From contig NZ_SWKN01000006.1 in the NCBI RefSeq assembly GCF_005871185.1, forward strand, positions 1,342,451 to 1,406,450: DNA of 64,000 nucleotides. Direction: 5' to 3'. The notes beneath the pieces are model-generated. The model saw only the letters and a program-made list of their open reading frames with translations. It was not told where the DNA came from and ran no database searches. The translations under genes and the position numbers were made by a program. Every line of letters begins with the position of its first letter. Position 1 is the stretch's first letter. Below, one piece after another: positions 3,695 through 18,214 of the stretch. Origin of the DNA: Limnobacter alexandrii. GTDB taxonomy: Bacteria; Pseudomonadota; Gammaproteobacteria; Burkholderiales; Burkholderiaceae_B.

Positions 3695-3732
3695 TTCATC
3701 TTGTATTCATCTTCCCGTGGCGTGTTATTCAT
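3695..3732 (+). promoter_or_regulatory. Phased TTCAT direct repeats (candidate OmpR-family operator)
   Basis: TTCAT occurs at 3695-3699, 3706-3710 and 3728-3732, so starts are 11 and 22 bases apart, one and two helical turns. The same arrangement precedes the porin at 4430 and the secreted protein at 8116, flanking the two-component pair at 5646-7981. Direct repeats with 11-bp phasing are typical of OmpR/PhoB-type response-regulator sites. Assignment to the local regulator is inference. Confidence 0.55.
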
Positions 3733-3827
3733 GAAATGGCACGGTTTAGGTTAAGGCTTGGCAATCAAACTGGTTTCCATGCAGACACGTTGCTGCACTT
3801 AACCGAGAAACTCACAGGAGAAATACC

Positions 3828-4193
3828 ATGAAAAAGATTGTTGCTCTTTCACTTGCACTTGGCTTCAGCGGCGCAGTAATGGCCAGTGATTTAACTTTCG
3901 GCGATGGCACATACCATGTTGTGAAGGAATCCAAGCAGTCCAGCCTGACTCGAGCCGAAGTGCTTTCCAAGACCGAAAGCACAAACGTGGCCAATGCACT
4001 GGATGGTTCAGTGACCCCCAGCTATGCACCCAGCACCATGCTGAGCCGCTCGGATGTGATCCGAAAGATGGAAGGCTTTGAGTATGCAGATTTTGGTGAT
4101 GCGACGAACCCGACTCCTTGGGTGAAGACGCGGGACGACAACAGTAATTTTGCGCAGGACGAAAGCAGCAAGCCTGCAACCAAAACCAACTGA
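3828..4193 (+). CDS. Small secreted hypothetical protein
   Basis: 121 residues with a clean Sec signal peptide (MKKIVALSLALGFSGAVMA, cut before SDLTF). A strong AGGAG site lies 9 bases before the ATG. The mature part contains two similar segments, SLTRAEVLSKTE and LSRSDVIRKME, resembling the short LTRAEV helices of small DUF4148-type periplasmic proteins of Burkholderiales, but the match is weak. It is preceded by the TTCAT repeat array and followed by a strong terminator, so it is a single-gene transcript probably co-regulated with the porin next to it. Function unknown. Confidence 0.75.
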   Translation: MKKIVALSLALGFSGAVMASDLTFGDGTYHVVKESKQSSLTRAEVLSKTESTNVANALDGSVTPSYAPSTMLSRSDVIRKMEGFEYADFGDATNPTPWVKTRDDNSNFAQDESSKPATKTN

Positions 4194-4227
4194 GCTGTCG
4201 GTTTTCGCTTCCTTCATCTCACACCCC

Positions 4228-4277
4228 AGGACTTTCACCAAGTCCTATTTTAGGCCCGAGCAATCGGGCCTTTTTTT
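4228..4277 (+). terminator. Tandem hairpins ending in a Rho-independent terminator
   Basis: A first hairpin AGGACTT-tcacc-AAGTCCT (4228-4246) is followed by GGCCCGA-gcaa-TCGGGCC (4253-4270) and seven T (4271-4277). The second is a textbook terminator for the small secreted protein gene and insulates it from the porin promoter. Confidence 0.85.
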
Positions 4278-4321
4278 ATTCCAAGCTTTTATATTTCAAC
4301 ATTGTGATTAAAAATAAACTT

Positions 4322-4381
4322 TTCATTTTGTGTTCATGCTGAAGCAGCTTGATCTTCATCGGGTATTCAGTGACCGTTCAT
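4322..4381 (+). promoter_or_regulatory. Array of five phased TTCAT/TTCAG repeats upstream of the porin
   Basis: TTCAT starts at 4322, 4333, 4355 and 4377 with TTCAG at 4366; every interval is 11 or 22 bases. All units lie on one face of the helix, 50-110 bases before the porin ATG. This is the fullest copy of the repeat seen at 3695 and 7984. A Pho-box-like 7-4-7 layout can be read from the first two units. Confidence 0.6.
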
Positions 4382-4429
4382 CTTGACCGACAACAATGGG
4401 GCTCCACATAAGTAACCAAGGAGTACCCG

Positions 4430-5539
4430 ATGAAAACGAGTTCTTGTTCCGTGCTGGCCTTGTTGATGCTTGGCGCAATTTCGACCAGTACTCATGCAGG
4501 CCAAGTGAGAACCGATGGCCAGGACATCATTCTTTCCACCAAAGGTGGATTGAAGCTTGAAACGGAAGACAAAAAAGCAGGCTTTCAGATTGGAGGTCGA
4601 CTTCACTGGGATTACACCCAGGATGAGACAAACACTGCTGCCAACGGCAATCAAACCCTTGACGATTTCGATGCACGCCGTGCCCGGATCGCCTTGCGTG
4701 GGCACTTCAATGACTTTGAGTACAAGGCCGAATTCAATATTGCTGAATCAGGTAACAGCGGTGGAAGCGCTGAAGACTTGTATGTGAGGTACAAGGGATT
4801 TGGCGAAATGGCTAACCTGACGATTGGTAAACAGCGCGTGCCTTTTGGCATGGATGTTTTGACCAGTTCAAACGACATCTCTTTGCTTGAGCGTTCCGCG
4901 ATGACAGAGCGTTACACTCTCGGACGTTCTGCCGGTCTCAAGCTGAGCGGCCGTGGCATGGATAAAAAATTCACTTATGGCATCGGTGTTTTCGAGGCTG
5001 ATGGAGATGGTGCCAATGACTTCCAGGATCAGGCCACGGCAGGTCGAGTGACATTTGCTCCTGTTCTGACCAAGGAAAGTGTTCTTCATTTTGGTGCTGG
5101 CTACCAAACGATCGGTGCTGCCGATCCGCTAGATGAAACGGATACCATGAATTTTGAAGTGGCAGGTGCTTTTGGTCCTTTCCATGCGCAGGCGGAGTAT
5201 TACGACTCCGATGTTGGCCCACAGAACTTCAATGGTTATTACGCGCAAGTCGGGTACATCCTGAATGGAGGCGGTATGCGTCCATACAGTGATGGCGTCT
5301 TCAAGCGGGTAAAAGCCGTACCTGGTGGCACTTGGGAAGTGACTGCCCGCTATGAAGAGGGAGATGGCCGTTTCAACGATGTTGGTTTGGCCTTTATCGA
5401 CGCCCAGCAAACTGCGTTGGGTTTGAACTATTACATGAATGATTCCGTAAAAATCGGTGTGAGTTACATGGACGCTAAAAGTAACACCAACGCCGACAAT
5501 GGCAATGAGCTGCGCATGCGTTTGCAGTTCACCTACTAA
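4430..5539 (+). CDS. Phosphate-selective-type (OprO/OprP family) outer-membrane porin
   Basis: 369 residues; Sec signal peptide cut after STHA. AAGGAGTACCCG precedes the ATG. The opening STKGGLKLETEDKKAGFQIGGRLHWD and the DDFDARRARIALRG, YKAEFNIAESG and IGKQRVPFGMD blocks are the usual OprO/OprP signatures, and the chain ends in Phe-Thr-Tyr as beta-barrels do. The family forms outer-membrane channels, some selective for phosphate or polyphosphate; selectivity here cannot be read from sequence. The gene is followed by the histidine kinase and preceded by five phased TTCAT repeats, so control by that system is likely. Confidence 0.85.
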   Translation: MKTSSCSVLALLMLGAISTSTHAGQVRTDGQDIILSTKGGLKLETEDKKAGFQIGGRLHWDYTQDETNTAANGNQTLDDFDARRARIALRGHFNDFEYKAEFNIAESGNSGGSAEDLYVRYKGFGEMANLTIGKQRVPFGMDVLTSSNDISLLERSAMTERYTLGRSAGLKLSGRGMDKKFTYGIGVFEADGDGANDFQDQATAGRVTFAPVLTKESVLHFGAGYQTIGAADPLDETDTMNFEVAGAFGPFHAQAEYYDSDVGPQNFNGYYAQVGYILNGGGMRPYSDGVFKRVKAVPGGTWEVTARYEEGDGRFNDVGLAFIDAQQTALGLNYYMNDSVKIGVSYMDAKSNTNADNGNELRMRLQFTY

Positions 5540-5645
5540 GGCGCTACAGCAAAATGAACGCCAGATTAACAAGCCGAAAAGTCTGGTGTTTATCACCAAT
5601 AATCCCTAGCATCTGGATGTTGATTTGATGCCCAAGGGAATATTG

Positions 5646-7259
5646 ATGTTCAAAACCCGGATTCTGCTGGCCTTTGTGGCTTTGGCATTGGTGGCGATTG
5701 CCCAAGGGGTAATCGGGTACTTTGCCATGGTCACGGCCAGTCAGAATGTTCAAAAAGGGCGTGTGGCCAATGAGTTGTTGGTGGGCTACATGGACCTCTT
5801 GTCCAACAAGCAATTGTTGAGAACCCAGTTGACCAATGAGATGACCGGGCTTGAGTCTGATCCACAGCAAAGCCAGGTGTACTACTACAACATGATTCGT
5901 GCGCTGGACACGCTGGATCGGCTTGCTGATACGGCCAAGAGTTTGACTGAAGGCAGTCAGGTGCTTTTGCCAGAGCATGATGAACGCGGCCAAAGTCTGA
6001 TTATTCTGCGCAAAGGCGTGGATCAGTTGGGCTCTGTAATGACCGCTTCATCATGGAAATTTGAGGCAGTTACTCCACAGGCCAAACGCCAAAAACTGGA
6101 TCAGATCTTTGATGTGTCTGAAGGGCAAGACTTGCGGGTCGCCTTGACCCAGAGTATTGCGAGAGAGCGTTTGATCACTGCGCGTGACCGCGCTGCTGCT
6201 GATGTGTCGCTCAATTTCATGACCAATGTTGTGGTTACAGCAACCATTGCGTTGGCTGCATTCATGGTGCTGCTGGCATTTTATTTTGTAAGGTCCCTGA
6301 GCAAGCCTGTCGATCGATTGATCAAAGGGGCTGAAGCTTTGCAAGCTGGAAATTTGAGTTATCGCATACCCGCCTTCGGTCGTGATGAGTTCTCGCAGGT
6401 GGCCCGCAGCATGAATGACATGGCGCGTGAAATCGCGCGGTTGCGTACTAACGATCAACAGGCCCGTGAGCAACTTGAATTGCAGGTGAGTGAGCGTACC
6501 AACGAATTGCAGGAGGCCTTGCATCGTCTGGAAAAAATTGAGTTGCGCCGCCGTCAAATGTTTGCAGACATCAGCCATGAGCTCAAAACACCAACGACAG
6601 CCATTCGAGGCGAGGCTGAGATCAGTTTGCGCCACGGTGGAAACAAGGCTGGAGAATGTAGGGAAACCTTGGAGCGCATTGTTCAATATACACAGCAGTT
6701 GAATTACATCGTTGACGACATGCTGACCCTGGCACGAAGTGATATTGATGCGCTTGTGCTAGATCGCAGGGCAGTGGATGTTTCAATGTTGTGTCATGAG
6801 TCGATCGCTTATTTTCGACCTCAGATCAGCCATAAGGGTTGTGTCGTCGAGGCGCAAATTCAGAGCGACAGTCTGGTGTTGGGCGATGCGCAGCGTTTGA
6901 AGCAAGTATTGAACATCATTTTGGACAATGCCATTCAATATGGCGGTTCCAACGCAGTAATACGGATCAGCACTGCTTCGGTGGAGGACGCAGAAAATAT
7001 GCGTCGCTGTAAAGTGACGATTGAAGACAATGGGCCGGGTATTCCAGAAAATGAGTTGGCTCGGGTATTTGAACGTCACTATCGGGGCACCACCGCAAAG
7101 CTACTCAGGCCGGATGGCAGTGGTCTGGGTCTGCCACTTGCGGCCGCAATTGTACGAGCACACCACGGCACCATCGATATAAGCAGCGAAGAGAATAAAG
7201 GGTGTAGGGTCACGGTGAATTTGCCAGCCTTTGATTCAATGATTGAGGATGCAGTATGA
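5646..7259 (+). CDS. Sensor histidine kinase with HAMP domain
   Basis: 537 residues from the ATG at 5646 (AAGGG 8 bases upstream). Transmembrane helix at about 5-28, a roughly 165-residue mostly helical periplasmic sensor region, a second helix at about 193-217, then a HAMP domain, a short coiled linker, a HisKA domain with FADISHELKTP (phospho-accepting His311) and an HATPase domain with the N box DNAIQYG, G1 box DNGPGIP and G2 box GSGLGLPLA. All catalytic boxes are intact. The signal is unknown. Its stop overlaps the start of the response regulator (ATGA-type), so the two are translationally coupled. Neighbouring secreted and outer-membrane genes with TTCAT repeats are the probable targets. 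Confidence 0.9.
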   Translation: MFKTRILLAFVALALVAIAQGVIGYFAMVTASQNVQKGRVANELLVGYMDLLSNKQLLRTQLTNEMTGLESDPQQSQVYYYNMIRALDTLDRLADTAKSLTEGSQVLLPEHDERGQSLIILRKGVDQLGSVMTASSWKFEAVTPQAKRQKLDQIFDVSEGQDLRVALTQSIARERLITARDRAAADVSLNFMTNVVVTATIALAAFMVLLAFYFVRSLSKPVDRLIKGAEALQAGNLSYRIPAFGRDEFSQVARSMNDMAREIARLRTNDQQAREQLELQVSERTNELQEALHRLEKIELRRRQMFADISHELKTPTTAIRGEAEISLRHGGNKAGECRETLERIVQYTQQLNYIVDDMLTLARSDIDALVLDRRAVDVSMLCHESIAYFRPQISHKGCVVEAQIQSDSLVLGDAQRLKQVLNIILDNAIQYGGSNAVIRISTASVEDAENMRRCKVTIEDNGPGIPENELARVFERHYRGTTAKLLRPDGSGLGLPLAAAIVRAHHGTIDISSEENKGCRVTVNLPAFDSMIEDAV

Positions 7260-7981
7260 AGGTGTTGATTGTTGAAGACGATGCGCGCGTATCCGGCTTT
7301 CTGGAGCGAGGTTTGAAAGCTGAGGGTTATCGCCCACAAGTGGCAAACAACGCCAGCTCGGGTATTTCAATGGCCAAGGCACTACAAAAAGAAGTGCGCG
7401 AAAACTTCGAAAGTGCGGTGCTGATACTGGACGTGATGTTGCCCGATGGTTCAGGGCTGGATGTTTGCCAAACCTTGCGTGCTGAAGGATTTTCCTTGCC
7501 CATCTTGATGCTGACGGCCTTGAATTCAGTGGAAGACCGCGTTGCTGGACTTCGCATGGGTGCAGATGATTACCTGGGCAAGCCTTTTGCATTCGATGAA
7601 ATCCTGGCCCGACTGGAAGCCTTGGGGCGTCGGGTTGGAAATGCGGCACCCAAGCAAGTCAGAAAGAATCTGGAGGTGGCTGATTTGAATCTGGATCTTG
7701 AGAAAATGCGTTTGTCCAGAGCCGGTCGCGAGATTCAATTGACCGCCAAAGAGCTGGCTTTGGTTGAGTTGTTGATGAGTGCACCGGGGCGCTTGTTCAG
7801 CCGTGAGCGGATTCTTTCCAATGTGTGGGGTGTGAACGAGGATCCGCTGACCAATGTGGTGGATGTGTACATTCGCCGCCTGCGTGCCAAGATTGATCTG
7901 GAGGGCATGCCACCCCTGATTCATACCCAGCGCGGCCTGGGCTATCGCTTGGAATCGCTGTCAGGCACTGATTCGCAGTGA
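7256..7981 (+). CDS. OmpR/PhoB-family response regulator
   Basis: 241 residues, overlapping the kinase gene by 4 bases. The receiver domain has VEDDARV with the acidic pair, phospho-accepting Asp59 in LILDVMLPDG, Thr in LMLTA and Lys in LGKPF. The receiver is about 7 residues longer than usual between the acidic pair and Asp59. The C-terminal half is a winged helix of the OmpR type (LTAKELALVELLM, FSRERILSNVWG, NVVDVYIRRLRAKID, IHTQRGLGYRL). The stop codon is immediately followed by two TTCAT units of the regulatory repeat, suggesting it controls the next gene and the upstream porin. Confidence 0.92.
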   Translation: MKVLIVEDDARVSGFLERGLKAEGYRPQVANNASSGISMAKALQKEVRENFESAVLILDVMLPDGSGLDVCQTLRAEGFSLPILMLTALNSVEDRVAGLRMGADDYLGKPFAFDEILARLEALGRRVGNAAPKQVRKNLEVADLNLDLEKMRLSRAGREIQLTAKELALVELLMSAPGRLFSRERILSNVWGVNEDPLTNVVDVYIRRLRAKIDLEGMPPLIHTQRGLGYRLESLSGTDSQ

Positions 7982-7983
7982 TG

Positions 7984-8069
7984 TTCATCTGGCGTTCATC
8001 TTGAATGCCAGAATGATTCATTGAGCAAGGAAGCTCCAGTTCATTTTGATCTCTCAAACTTGTGTTCAT
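7984..8069 (+). promoter_or_regulatory. Phased TTCAT repeats between the response regulator and the next gene
   Basis: TTCAT starts at 7984, 7995 and 8017 (11 then 22 bases apart), with further less well phased copies at 8040 and 8065. They begin right after the regulator stop codon and precede the secreted SnoaL-like gene at 8116. Same design as at 3695-3732 and 4322-4381. Confidence 0.55.
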
Positions 8070-8115: not shown

Positions 8116-8679
8116 ATGAAAAAATCAAGTTTTGTACAAGCCGCAATGTTGACTGCTGGTGTTGCATTAAGCGGCGCTGCGTTCGCGAATACTGCGGTGG
8201 TCAACAGCAATATCACTGAAGCTGAAGTGCTGAAAGCCCAACAAATGTGGGGCAACGCAGTTGTCCAGATTTCCAAAGACTTTGAATCAGGTGGCCTGGA
8301 CAAAGCCAAGAAAACCGCACAGGCCGCGCTGGATGCTGCTTATGCCTATGACATGGGCCCTGTTTTGTTCAAGCCTACTCTGGCCGCACTCCCACAGAAT
8401 ATTCGCAGCACTGAAGAGGGTGCATTGGCTTACTTCGTGGGTGGTAACAAACAGTTCCCCAACGACTCCGGATTTGCCTTGAAAGGTTGGAGAAATGTGG
8501 AATCCAAAAACGCTGTTATTCACCTGAACGGCAATACCGCACTGACCATGGGTAATGTCAGCTTTACTGACAAGAACGGCAAAGTAACCACAGTCGATAA
8601 GACCTGGGGTTACGTGAAGGACAGCGCTGGCAACGTGAAGATTGTGCTCCACCACTCATCACTGCCTTACACCAACTAA
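8116..8679 (+). CDS. Secreted SnoaL/NTF2-like protein
   Basis: 187 residues from the ATG at 8116 with AAGGAG 8 bases before it; an earlier in-frame ATG at 8062 lies inside the repeat array and is rejected. Sec signal peptide cut after GAAFA. The mature part starts ITEAEVLKAQQMWGNAVVQISKDFE and ends in beta-rich segments (NVSFTDKNGKVTTVDKTWGYVKD...IVLHHSSLPY), the layout of a SnoaL/DUF4440-like cone-shaped fold. Similar exported proteins are sometimes labelled phosphoribosyl-AMP cyclohydrolase in databases; I see nothing here supporting that activity. Probably under the neighbouring two-component system. Confidence 0.7.
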   Translation: MKKSSFVQAAMLTAGVALSGAAFANTAVVNSNITEAEVLKAQQMWGNAVVQISKDFESGGLDKAKKTAQAALDAAYAYDMGPVLFKPTLAALPQNIRSTEEGALAYFVGGNKQFPNDSGFALKGWRNVESKNAVIHLNGNTALTMGNVSFTDKNGKVTTVDKTWGYVKDSAGNVKIVLHHSSLPYTN

Positions 8680-8739: not shown

Positions 8740-9657
8740 ATGAACCAACAACAATCAAAATGGATCAAGGCTGCAGTGTTGAGCACTGCTGTTTTTTGTG
8801 CCCCTGTTTGGGCAAGCACCGGCAAGCTGGTCTTGACTGGTGGTGTCAGCACGGTTGAAGGTGCTGGCGGTGGCGGTATTACCCCCTGGGCTTTTATTGG
8901 TACACAGGCCACTGAAAATGAATTGGGTTTTGCAACGAATCTGACCCAGGTTGAAACACAGGATTATTCGCTGACCACTTACGGTGCAACCGTGGGCTGG
9001 AATGAACGCGTGGAGTTTTCTCTGGGTGAGCAGGTGCTTGATACGGGTATCACCGGAACAGCCCTGACCGGCGCGGGTTTGGACTTGAAACAGCAGATTA
9101 TCGGTGTGAAGGTTCGAGTGTTTGGTGACGGCGTATTGGACACCGACACCTGGTACCCCCAAGTGGCAGTGGGTGTGCAGCACAAATCGCTGGATGCCGC
9201 CGCTTTGGAGCCGACCCTGACTTCATTGGGTGCAGACGACAGCGGCACTGATTTCTATGTTTCTGCAACCAAACTTTTCCTGAAACAGGGCGTGCTGGTC
9301 AACGGTACTTTGCGAGCCACCAAGGCCAACCAGAACGGCTTGCTGGGCTTCGGTTCAAACACAGACGACAGTTATGAGCTGATGCCTGAAATATCCGTGG
9401 CCAAGTTGTTGAATCACAACCTCGCAATTGGTGCTGAATACCGAATGATGCCGAACAATCTGGAGGCAGCAGGTCGGAACGCCGGCCTGGGCGCTGGCTT
9501 GCGTGCAGACGATTGGATTGATGTGTTCGTAGCCTGGGCACCCACCAAAAACCTGTCGTTGACTGCGGCCTATGTTGACCTTGGCCGAATTGTGCCCGCC
9601 ACAACAGATGGCCGCAGCCAAACAGGCTTCTATTTGTCCGCTCAACTTGCATTTTGA
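8740..9657 (+). CDS. DUF3034-family outer-membrane-type protein
   Basis: 305 residues from the ATG at 8740 (GGAAG upstream); signal peptide cut after APVWA. The mature protein begins TGKLVLTGGVSTVEGAGGGGITPWAFIG, the typical opening of DUF3034 proteins, and consists of alternating beta segments ending in YLSAQLAF with a C-terminal Phe, as for outer-membrane beta-barrels. No biochemical role is established. It is 12 bases before the exported truncated hemoglobin gene, so the two are very likely one operon. Confidence 0.8.
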   Translation: MNQQQSKWIKAAVLSTAVFCAPVWASTGKLVLTGGVSTVEGAGGGGITPWAFIGTQATENELGFATNLTQVETQDYSLTTYGATVGWNERVEFSLGEQVLDTGITGTALTGAGLDLKQQIIGVKVRVFGDGVLDTDTWYPQVAVGVQHKSLDAAALEPTLTSLGADDSGTDFYVSATKLFLKQGVLVNGTLRATKANQNGLLGFGSNTDDSYELMPEISVAKLLNHNLAIGAEYRMMPNNLEAAGRNAGLGAGLRADDWIDVFVAWAPTKNLSLTAAYVDLGRIVPATTDGRSQTGFYLSAQLAF

Positions 9658-9669
9658 GGAAAGACCATC

Positions 9670-10107
9670 ATGATGAAATCAATTCGAACTAATGCAGCCG
9701 CTCTGGCTGTAGCCATGTGTTTATCGGTCTCTGCGCAGGCCAGTTCTGACAAAACCTTGTACGAGCAACTGGGCGGTAAGGAAAGTATCCGCATGGTCAT
9801 GGATGACTTTGTGGTGCGTTTGAAAGCCGATCCGCGAATTGGCGATCAGTTTGCGGCAACAAACGCAGACCGTTTGGCTTCCCAACTAACAGACCAGGTG
9901 TGTGAAGCCACCGGCGGGCCTTGTAAGTATGTAGGTGCCGACATGAAAACTGCACATGAAGACATGGTGATTACCAAAGCCCACTTCAATGCCTTGGTGG
10001 AGGTGCTTCAGACCAGCATGAATGCGCACAGCGTTCCGTTTGATATTCAGCTGGAAGTGCTCAGCATGTTAGCACCCATGCACCGGGATGTGATTACGGT
10101 TCGATAG
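9670..10107 (+). CDS. Exported group 1 truncated hemoglobin
   Basis: 145 residues with a signal peptide cut after SAQA, so the globin is predicted to work in the periplasm. The TrHb1 pattern is clear: YEQLGGKESIRMVMDDF, KADPRIGDQF, TGGPCKY and MKTAHEDMVITKAHF, with proximal heme His96 (F8). The distal B10 position, Tyr in mycobacterial trHbN, aligns with Val48 here, which would change ligand binding. Cys78 and Cys85 in the mature part could pair in the periplasm. Transcribed with the DUF3034 gene. Likely roles of such proteins are NO or O2 handling or electron transfer; no direct evidence here. Confidence 0.85.
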   Translation: MMKSIRTNAAALAVAMCLSVSAQASSDKTLYEQLGGKESIRMVMDDFVVRLKADPRIGDQFAATNADRLASQLTDQVCEATGGPCKYVGADMKTAHEDMVITKAHFNALVEVLQTSMNAHSVPFDIQLEVLSMLAPMHRDVITVR

Positions 10108-16942: not shown

Positions 16943-18214
16943 ATGAGTTATGAATCGGGTAAATTGAAAGAACATTATTCCGTTGTTGTGATTGGAGGTG
17001 GGCAAGCCGGGTTGTCAATGAGTTACCTCCTGACGCGCAAAGAAATTGACCATGTGGTGCTGGAAAGAAACCAGATTGGCCACAGCTGGCGCAATCAGCG
17101 TTGGGACAGCTTTTGTTTGGTAACCCCAAATTGGCAATGCAATTTGCCCGACTTTCCTTACGCTGGGCCGGAACCAAAAGGCTTCATGAAGAAAGCGGAC
17201 ATTGTTGCTTATCTGGAGGCATTTGCTGCCTCGTTTCACCCCCCGGTATTTGAAGGTGTTGCAGTCAAACAGTTGCGCAAGTTAAGCGACGGTTTGTTTG
17301 AAATTCAAAGTACGCATCGCACCTTGACGGCCAAGCAGGTTGTTGTTGCCGTGGGCGGCTATCACAAGCCGAGAATTCCGAGGTTGTCAGAAAAGGTGCC
17401 TGCACACATTCAGCAAATTCATTCTTCGGAATACCGAAATCCTGCTCAGTTTCCAGAGGGCAATGTTCTGATCATTGGCTCTGGCCAAAGTGGTTGCCAG
17501 ATAGCCGAAGATTTTCATTTGGCAGGTCGCCGTGTTCACTTGTCGGTGGGCAGTGCGCCCCGTGTGGCTCGACGGTATCGCGGTCGGGATGTGGTGGAAT
17601 GGCTGACTGACATGGGGCATTACGACATGCCCGTGGAATTGCATCCGCAGAAAGAGGCGGTTCGTGCCAAAGCCAACCATTACGTGACAGGGCGGGATGG
17701 TGGGCGAGACATTGATCTGCGAATGCGGGCCAAAGAAGGCATGCAGCTTCATGGCCGATTGGCTGATTGCGTGGATGGGGTGATGGAATTTGCAGACGAC
17801 CTGGCAAAGAATTTGGACAATGCAGACCAAAGCAGTGAGAACATCAAGAACATGATTGATGGTTTCATCGCCCAGAATGGGATTTCAGCGCCAGAAGAGG
17901 CTCGGTATGTTCCCGTGTGGAGGCCAGAAGGAGGATGTTCCCGTATTGATTTGCTTGCAGAAAATATCACGGGAATTGTATGGTCAGTCGGTTTTGAAAG
18001 CTCCTTCGACTGGATCGATTTGCCGATTTTTAACGGCAAAGGTTATCCGAATCATTACCGGGGAGTTAGCCGGGAACCCGGTGTGTATTTTCTTGGCTTG
18101 CCATGGTTACACACTTGGGGTTCCGGGCGCTTCTCGGGCGTAGCGCGTGATTCGGCGTTTCTGCTCGGGGAAATCGAACGGCAATTCCAGACTGTGCTTG
18201 AAGGCGTTAATTAA
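16943..18214 (+). CDS. nitH: NitH, MSMEG_0569-family FAD-dependent monooxygenase-like oxidoreductase
   Basis: 423 residues from the ATG at 16943 (AAGGAAA upstream). Two Rossmann motifs are visible: VVVIGGGQAGLSMSYLL near residue 16 for FAD and VLIIGSGQSGCQIAEDF near residue 175 for NAD(P)H, as in flavin-containing monooxygenases. WSVGFESSFDWIDLP and FLGLPWLHTWGSGRFSGVARD close the chain. In the Nit1C context an oxidation of a nitrogen compound before or after nitrilase action is likely. Last gene of the cluster; its end overlaps the convergent thioesterase gene by 8 bases. Confidence 0.92.
   Translation: MSYESGKLKEHYSVVVIGGGQAGLSMSYLLTRKEIDHVVLERNQIGHSWRNQRWDSFCLVTPNWQCNLPDFPYAGPEPKGFMKKADIVAYLEAFAASFHPPVFEGVAVKQLRKLSDGLFEIQSTHRTLTAKQVVVAVGGYHKPRIPRLSEKVPAHIQQIHSSEYRNPAQFPEGNVLIIGSGQSGCQIAEDFHLAGRRVHLSVGSAPRVARRYRGRDVVEWLTDMGHYDMPVELHPQKEAVRAKANHYVTGRDGGRDIDLRMRAKEGMQLHGRLADCVDGVMEFADDLAKNLDNADQSSENIKNMIDGFIAQNGISAPEEARYVPVWRPEGGCSRIDLLAENITGIVWSVGFESSFDWIDLPIFNGKGYPNHYRGVSREPGVYFLGLPWLHTWGSGRFSGVARDSAFLLGEIERQFQTVLEGVN

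Follow-up and report, generated by a model that had tools for sequence, protein, structure and literature searches.

Direct repeats serve as operators for several described response regulators. The CreB/BlrA tag reads TTCAC-N6-TTCAC (PMC4689548, PMC3660660; these papers and those below are cited from the parts of their text that were available), and the PhoP box of Streptomyces is GTTCACC-N4-GTTCACC (PMC4832192). In Mycobacterium, PhoP occupies such repeats as tandem dimers, and three or four units are bound more tightly (PMC4832192). Iota-class carbonic anhydrases come in two subtypes that almost never coexist, for reasons that the available text of PMC8132391 calls unclear, and the bacterial enzymes are annotated as SgcJ/EcaC (PMC8425729). 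The locus described here lies in a 64,000-nucleotide stretch of Limnobacter alexandrii DNA (contig NZ_SWKN01000006.1, positions 1,342,451 to 1,406,450), called the window below, where ladders of TTCAT units precede three genes around a sensor kinase and an OmpR/PhoB-type response regulator. The third of these genes encodes an iota-class carbonic anhydrase homolog, and quite probably the PhoB-like regulator activates carbonic anhydrase and a few envelope genes through the ladders. The main features are as follows (G and L numbers are our handles for genomes and loci).

3695..3732, plus strand: operator ladder A, with TTCAT at 3695, 3706 and 3728 (0/11/33), ahead of the gene for the small secreted protein; kept in G004, G005, G006 and G014
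3828..4193, plus strand: small protein of 121 residues with a signal-peptide-like start (by eye)
4322..4381, plus strand: operator ladder B, with units at 4322, 4333, 4355, 4366 (TTCAG) and 4377 (0/11/33/44/55), before the porin
4430..5539, plus strand: outer-membrane porin, Porin_O_P (PF07396)
5646..7259, plus strand: sensor histidine kinase with an N-terminal helical sensor, HAMP, HisKA and HATPase_c; membrane helices predicted from sequence
7256..7981, plus strand: OmpR/PhoB-type response regulator of a carbonic-anhydrase-linked clade
7984..8069, plus strand: operator ladder C, with units at 7984, 7995, 8017 (0/11/33), 8040 (+56) and 8065, before the carbonic anhydrase homolog gene
8116..8679, plus strand: iota-class carbonic anhydrase homolog (COG4337-type, metal-independent) with a signal-peptide-like start (by eye)

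The TTCAT ladders of the window

Successive units start 11 and 22 base pairs (bp) apart in ladder A; 11, 22, 11 and 11 bp apart in B; and 11, 22, 23 and 25 bp apart in C. An earlier note on this DNA had given steps of 11 or 22 bp for all three promoters, which holds for A and B, but the last two units of C fall out of strict 11-bp phase. Five units are indeed present before the porin, but not "in a row" as was claimed: the one at 4366 reads TTCAG and the slot at 4344 is skipped. The exact pair TTCAT-N6-TTCAT occurs three times in the window (3695, 4322 and 7984, all on the plus strand) against 0.17 expected, and none of 100 dinucleotide shuffles reaches three. When one mismatch is permitted, the excess is weaker, with 12 pairs against 5.3 expected and one shuffle that got to 12. 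The whole genome holds 18 exact pairs: 12 within mechanically called open reading frames, three at gene edges, and the three in the window, which alone have a third TTCAT at +33. The pattern is thus better written as a ladder at 0, 11 and 33, and the two-unit consensus first proposed is too short, the conserved unit being a ladder of three to six steps. In the genus, the slot at 22 is degenerate, and extra units stand at 44 and 55 before the porin and at 56 before the third gene. Together the three promoters contain 13 TTCAT against 2.1 expected under a first-order model, and none of 20,000 simulations is as high. An origin of the ladders by chance or from coding repeats is ruled out by the shuffle, reading-frame position and simulation counts. 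An Rfam scan of the window gave no match.

Conservation of ladder and regulator in the genus

The regulator is encoded, at 68% identity or more, in eight of the 16 genomes of the genus, and the exact three-unit ladder (24 sites) is found in those same eight. The ladder is present in 8/8 genomes with the regulator and 0/8 without it (Fisher 7.8e-5, the species not being independent, and two of the eight genomes that lack the regulator being incomplete, at 85% and 65%). With no genome discordant, this supports the earlier proposal of a regulon of the local OmpR-type regulator. The window and eight relative loci hold 26 exact pairs, all with a unit at +33 (24 TTCAT and two TTAAT), so the repeats, whose retention in orthologous promoters had been put forward as a test, are kept there. 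In promoter C of G004 and G014 (two of the five species aligned) the second unit is TTAAT; these sites lie outside the 26 pairs, and the ladder is retained. The units do not vary in the alignments of promoters A and B, where the flanks have diverged: across four species the ladder positions are unchanged at 40/40 sites versus 18/58 between units, a contrast that flatters, since the unit positions were picked because they read TTCAT. On contig 38 of G005 (L058), a ladder-bearing copy of promoter A lacks the downstream small protein gene and sits beside the same neighbour gene as in the window.

These distributions bear on two known regulators. The ladders might be ordinary Pho boxes bound by PhoB, with the porin as a phosphate-starvation gene: the porin matches Porin_O_P, PhoB boxes are likewise 11-bp direct repeats (PMC4415409), and from a reading of the translations some ladders outside the genus precede pstS-like (L082) and phoX-type phosphatase-like (L085-L087) genes. 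However, PhoB is found above its curated cut-off in 16/16 genus genomes and the ladder in just the eight with the local regulator, so PhoB cannot explain the pattern; moreover, the E. coli PhoB unit is CTGTCAT rather than TTCAT, and the conserved target here is carbonic anhydrase. We regard Pho boxes as a highly improbable explanation. We give equally little credence to a CreBC-type system acting through a cre/blr tag with one base changed. Each unit of that tag, TTCAC-N6-TTCAC, differs from TTCAT in one base, and the 11-bp step is shared (PMC4689548, PMC3660660), but all rows of the aligned promoters A (six), B (five) and C (five) have T as the last letter of units 0 and 11. Elsewhere the search that located the sites was itself for TTCAT, and the final letter of those units therefore does not bear on the TTCAC tag. 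The regulator scores 159.9 bits against the CreB model NF008296 (cut-off 273) and the kinase 139.9 bits against the CreC model (cut-off 356); in addition, the gene neighbours differ, and the regulator tree described below contained no CreB.

TerC genes provide a natural experiment. The genus has 16 of them, and ladders stand before exactly three, those inside the clusters of G005, G014 and G013, the last being a different TerC located upstream of the kinase and regulator. The other 13, including second copies in G005 and G014, show no ladder in the region covered, which began 500 bp ahead of the open frame and ended 200 bp inside it. This supports the local regulator as the reader and, from the sequence comparisons, it is in all likelihood this regulator that would read the ladder.

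Some genomes have rearranged versions of the cluster, the whole of which seems to have moved: the G014 copy (L050; that of G005 is L051) lies near a TerC gene and, from its translation, an IS3-type integrase, and in G005 the geneless promoter A of contig 38 stayed behind. The clusters of G015 and G012 (L053, L054) have two paralogous regulators each, at 79-80% and 68-69% identity, and a DUF2490 gene that diverges from the first regulator gene is preceded by a ladder.

A carbonic anhydrase homolog behind the regulator

The protein encoded at 8116-8679 has no Pfam match and had been described as SnoaL-like; comparison with NCBIfam and solved structures shows it to be more than that, an iota-class carbonic anhydrase homolog. 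It scores 243 bits over 182/205 positions of NF047901 (metal-independent carbonic anhydrase), below the 350-bit cut-off, with three other members scanned giving 234 to 285 bits. It also aligns over 170 residues to 7c5v_A (E 8.3e-60), and to 7c5x_A (E 8.9e-86). Its LFKPT, AYFVG and HHSS segments are identical to those of 7c5v, whose protein we take to be all2909. In mutants of all2909, Thr106 and Tyr124 proved necessary, and His197 and Ser199 important (PMC8132391). The segments expected to hold these catalytic Thr, Tyr, His and Ser residues, as mapped by motif, are identical in the window protein. It is thus a homolog of solved iota-class enzymes that keeps their catalytic segments, and CO2 hydration activity is predicted. 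The enzyme occurs in seven genus genomes, all with the regulator. In the wider clade described next, COG4875 members keep the His-His-Ser-Ser motif, and the one scanned matches PF08332 and the SgcJ/EcaC model.

A clade of regulators linked to carbonic anhydrase

The system at first seemed confined to the genus, as the regulator is found in 8/250 genomes of the window's family, all in its genus. This was overturned by G391, from a second family, where a ladder directly follows the gene of a close regulator homolog; an order-wide pattern search shows ladders in nine non-genus genomes of the 399 searched. The second family has the regulator (E ≤1e-75) in 49/399 genomes and 31/141 genera, and all 49 neighbourhoods were compared. 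A carbonic anhydrase of any type (1e-10) lies near 44/49 of these regulators versus 1/80 control loci (p 1.2e-27), although the latter give only a rough base rate, since they come from many phyla, are not genome-matched and are shorter (mean 14.3 versus 15.5 kilobases, kb). The controls are the best 80 among the matches listed in a named-genome scan, mostly unrelated OmpR-type regulators, with the window's near kin left out. By type (E ≤1e-6), COG4337 iota-class enzymes are present at 30/49 loci versus 1/80 controls, COG4875 at 11/49 versus 0/80, and beta-class at 6/49 versus 0/80, three of these last (L267, L275 and L306) in the slot after the regulator. In L307, the enzyme gene is 7.8 kb distant. 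The sole positive control, Rheinheimera L105, is placed within the clade by the tree, which groups 60 regulators with 99/95 support against 80 others.

The window regulator is a member of this carbonic-anhydrase-linked two-component clade: it falls within it, is paired with a kinase, and has the enzyme gene next to it. The clade is found in alpha- and betaproteobacteria, as well as in Rheinheimera, a gammaproteobacterium. On the regulator tree the enzyme type changes at least six times (54 labelled rows, one tree). The linkage extends to plasmids. Three from Agrobacterium (among at least seven Agrobacterium records in the matches listed) carry the kinase and the regulator along with a convergent gene whose product, annotated as "hypothetical protein", is the iota-class homolog (54 to 57% identity); one from Variovorax paradoxus (among at least two Variovorax records in the matches listed) carries the kinase, the regulator, a ladder at 0/11/33/55 and an enzyme of the COG4875 type. 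Carbonic anhydrase, the conserved target missed by the earlier note's list, is very probably the core output of the clade's two-component system.

Promoter architecture and unlinked sites

Exact pairs within about 420 bp upstream are found on the gene's own strand for 32/44 carbonic anhydrase genes, and on either strand for 37/44. When scored at units 0, 11 and 33, 47/56 carbonic anhydrase promoters reach at least 13/15, versus 1.3% of 12,200 random windows taken from the same loci, true ladders included. Three beta-class promoters and that of L307, kept among the 56, score low (mis-anchored gene starts or a distant gene). In 28/52 iota-class promoters, an NNNAAT hexamer stands N10 past the last unit. 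Of the remaining spacings between N4 and N21, each is seen zero to four times, except for N21 (N10 shifted one unit further), which is seen 12 times. The same spacing is seen at ladder B, and a second, weaker site lies between the porin and the kinase:

4392..4397, plus strand: candidate -10 hexamer AACAAT, 10 nucleotides past the last TTCAT of ladder B, predicted from sequence and spacing
5554..5569, minus strand: candidate autoregulatory site, two units in reverse orientation (TTAATCTGGCGTTCAT)

The latter is a weak candidate because its entire surroundings are conserved too. Sites for PhoB are placed just before the -10 element, and the placement of the ladder is alike. As N10 separates the ladder from a -10-like hexamer in about half of the promoters, the regulator probably replaces the -35 element and activates transcription.

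A stricter ladder pattern, shaped on those same loci and scanned over the same 399 genomes, is present in 21/49 regulator-bearing versus 11/350 other genomes (p 4.7e-14). A match lies beside a carbonic anhydrase gene in 20/21 of the former and 0/11 of the latter (18 and 11 loci compared together, with G890, G940 and G185 taken from separate comparisons). Two genomes in which the regulator has no enzyme nearby, G894 and G185, have a ladder beside a carbonic anhydrase elsewhere: in G894 it is on another contig, immediately upstream of a gene for an iota-class enzyme (L342, scoring 285 bits against NF047901), and in G185 it is beside a beta-class gene, in reverse orientation.

Such sites speak to the possibility that the repeats are linked to the regulator but causally unrelated to it, inherited with the cluster and read by another factor or by none. 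Most sites are indeed linked to the regulator gene, so that shared ancestry inflates the statistics. However, the letters of the units are kept while the flanks diverge, the unlinked carbonic anhydrase gene of G894 has a ladder, the recruited TerC copies have ladders and their paralogs do not, and the beta-class genes in the same slot (L267, L275, L306) have them as well. Passive inheritance is therefore very unlikely.

Several observations weigh against activation of carbonic anhydrase by this regulator through the ladders. No carbonic anhydrase is near 5/49 regulators, those of G857, G1008 and G1010 besides the G894 and G185 already mentioned; in the genus, G013, with the system and a TerC gene, gave no hit to the enzyme of the window. 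The strict pattern is missing from 28/49 regulator-bearing genomes, the N10 spacing was not found in 24/52 iota-class promoters, promoter C of the window among them, and ladders in the Agrobacterium promoters are degenerate, scoring 12 to 13 of 15. Carbonic anhydrase is missing beside the only match in G883 and beside the second matches on contig 4 of G890 and contig 21 of G747, the last of which adjoins another OmpR-type regulator. TTCAT ladders also stand beside a different OmpR-type regulator, of 30 to 35% identity to that of the window, in L333, L335, L336 and L345; thus the motif is not exclusive to the clade, which suggests that related operators also exist in the family of that regulator.

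Ladder-like repeats occur further afield. In Arcobacter relatives (L167, L173 and L182, near 1900-2000), 11-bp-phased TTCAT precede an ABC-transporter operon (from a reading of the translations), which in L167 directly follows another kinase-regulator pair.

The regulator and its sensor kinase

With PF00072 (receiver) and PF00486 (Trans_reg_C, winged-helix) both above cut-off, the regulator is of the OmpR/PhoB type; its conserved aspartate is D59. It scores 178.8 bits against the PhoB model TIGR02154, whose cut-off is 296.2, and its best NCBIfam model is the heavy-metal regulator TIGR01387, at 208.7 bits with a cut-off of 279.2. All ten aligned regulators share the sequence TNVVDVY[IV]RRLR in the region of the recognition helix. 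A kinase that aligns from its N-terminal part is present in 60/60 clade loci. Queries made from the sensor only match 46/49 loci with the window sensor and 49/49 with the G391 sensor, versus 1/80 and 2/80 controls; the controls matched are L105, a clade member, and L106, a row adjoining the clade. In the presumed periplasmic part (window numbering), K55 and F155 are kept in 60/60 sequences, D162 in 93% and R164 in 98%. A structure model of the N-terminus, built from a two-sequence alignment, is all helical, with four helices (pLDDT 73.8). It has no match in the PDB below E 0.001, and its weak helical-bundle matches include chemoreceptor and NarQ sensors. A small-anion or pH sensor is plausible.

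The same regulator and operator could instead respond to metal status (manganese or zinc), with carbonic anhydrase and TerC as metal-sparing or metal-handling outputs. The enzyme of the window belongs to a metal-independent type, the clusters of G005, G013, G014 and also G872 contain TerC genes, whose products have been linked with the handling of manganese (PMC10550928, PMC13274385), and the best, below-cut-off NCBIfam models for the regulator are those of heavy-metal regulators. Yet among the outputs are the metal-binding beta class and also COG4875 iota-class enzymes, for which binding of Mn/Zn has been reported or suggested (PMC8132391), so that metal sparing does not explain the exchange of one enzyme type for another. 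The domain scan recognised no metal-binding sensor domain. A metal signal is in our view unlikely, though much less so than the readings based on PhoB, CreBC or passive inheritance.

Proposed mechanism

By analogy with PhoB, a model can be proposed for how the local regulator controls carbonic anhydrase. A periplasmic signal would lead the kinase to phosphorylate the regulator. The DNA-binding domains would then line up head to tail on successive 11-bp units, with one subunit per TTCAT, and the bound regulator, in place of a -35 element, would activate transcription as PhoB does. Binding, phosphorylation, activation rather than repression, and the nature of the signal are all predictions from sequence. 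In the window genome the outputs would be carbonic anhydrase, the porin and the small secreted protein, to which other genomes would add TerC or DUF2490 genes. With carbonic anhydrase as the core output across the clade, accompanied by envelope genes, the circuit would most likely be a CO2, bicarbonate or pH homeostasis switch of the cell envelope; that the signal is one of these three we hold to be about evenly balanced. A more general proposal is tentative, and we lean slightly away from it: a widespread, previously undescribed two-component system would respond to CO2, bicarbonate or periplasmic pH and govern the carbonic anhydrase of each lineage, of whatever type.

Neighbouring genes

The small protein at 3828..4193 has no Pfam or NCBIfam match; it is present twice in G005, G006 and G014, where the additional copy also has a ladder. 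The carbonic anhydrase gene is immediately followed, on the same strand, by one more gene:

8740..9657, plus strand: DUF3034 protein

DUF3034 also occurs near carbonic anhydrase in 2/49 loci of the second family. After this gene, on the same strand at 9670-10107, comes a gene for a bacterial-like globin (PF01152), whose start looks by eye like a signal peptide. Rfam matches in seven relative loci comprise a tRNA and one manganese riboswitch; the latter (RF00080, L053 of G015, 17596-17710) lies before a GDT1-type transporter, about 1.6 kb past the porin gene of the cluster.

Comparison with known systems

Behind a single regulator and operator, the same position is held by either iota subtype and, in three cases, by a beta-class enzyme. 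If the model is correct, the reported mutual exclusion of the iota subtypes would come down to the exchange of a single component within a circuit that otherwise stays the same. With promoter, regulator and sensor defined, the purpose of iota-class enzymes could also be tested, along with the reading of CO2 or bicarbonate by a periplasmic kinase. Should the signal prove to be otherwise, a new operator code and regulon would still have been added for an unnamed clade of the OmpR family.

In the literature searched, which covered few subscription papers so that absence proves little, neither TTCAT-N6-TTCAT, looked for in four spellings, nor a two-component regulator of a bacterial carbonic anhydrase was found. 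The iota-class papers searched, PMC8132391 among them, do not mention a two-component system, response regulator or operon in their main text. The earlier description of the consensus as undescribed stands for its exact letters only, as the CreB/BlrA tag and the Streptomyces PhoP box are closely alike.

Described iota-class carbonic anhydrases include all2909 and Bn86287 (COG4337) and BteCA-iota (COG4875); the window enzyme aligns with 7c5v and is identical to it in the segments expected to hold the catalytic residues. Like the operators of PhoB and of PhoP in Streptomyces and Mycobacterium (CTGTCAT-N4, GTTCACC-N4), the ladders consist of tandem head-to-tail 11-bp units, but the unit here is TTCAT-N6, the regulator falls below the PhoB cut-off, and PhoB is separately present throughout the genus (16/16 genomes). 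CreB (BlrA) of E. coli and Aeromonas is similar in being an OmpR/PhoB-type regulator with 11-bp direct repeats, a TTCA core and a target beside the regulator-kinase pair. In contrast to CreB, the unit of the window ends in T rather than C, the arrays have three to six steps, and the targets are carbonic anhydrase and envelope genes. Since the operator resembles both the CreB tag and the PhoB/PhoP boxes, its DNA logic is of a known kind; what is new, within the literature searched, is the link to carbonic anhydrase.

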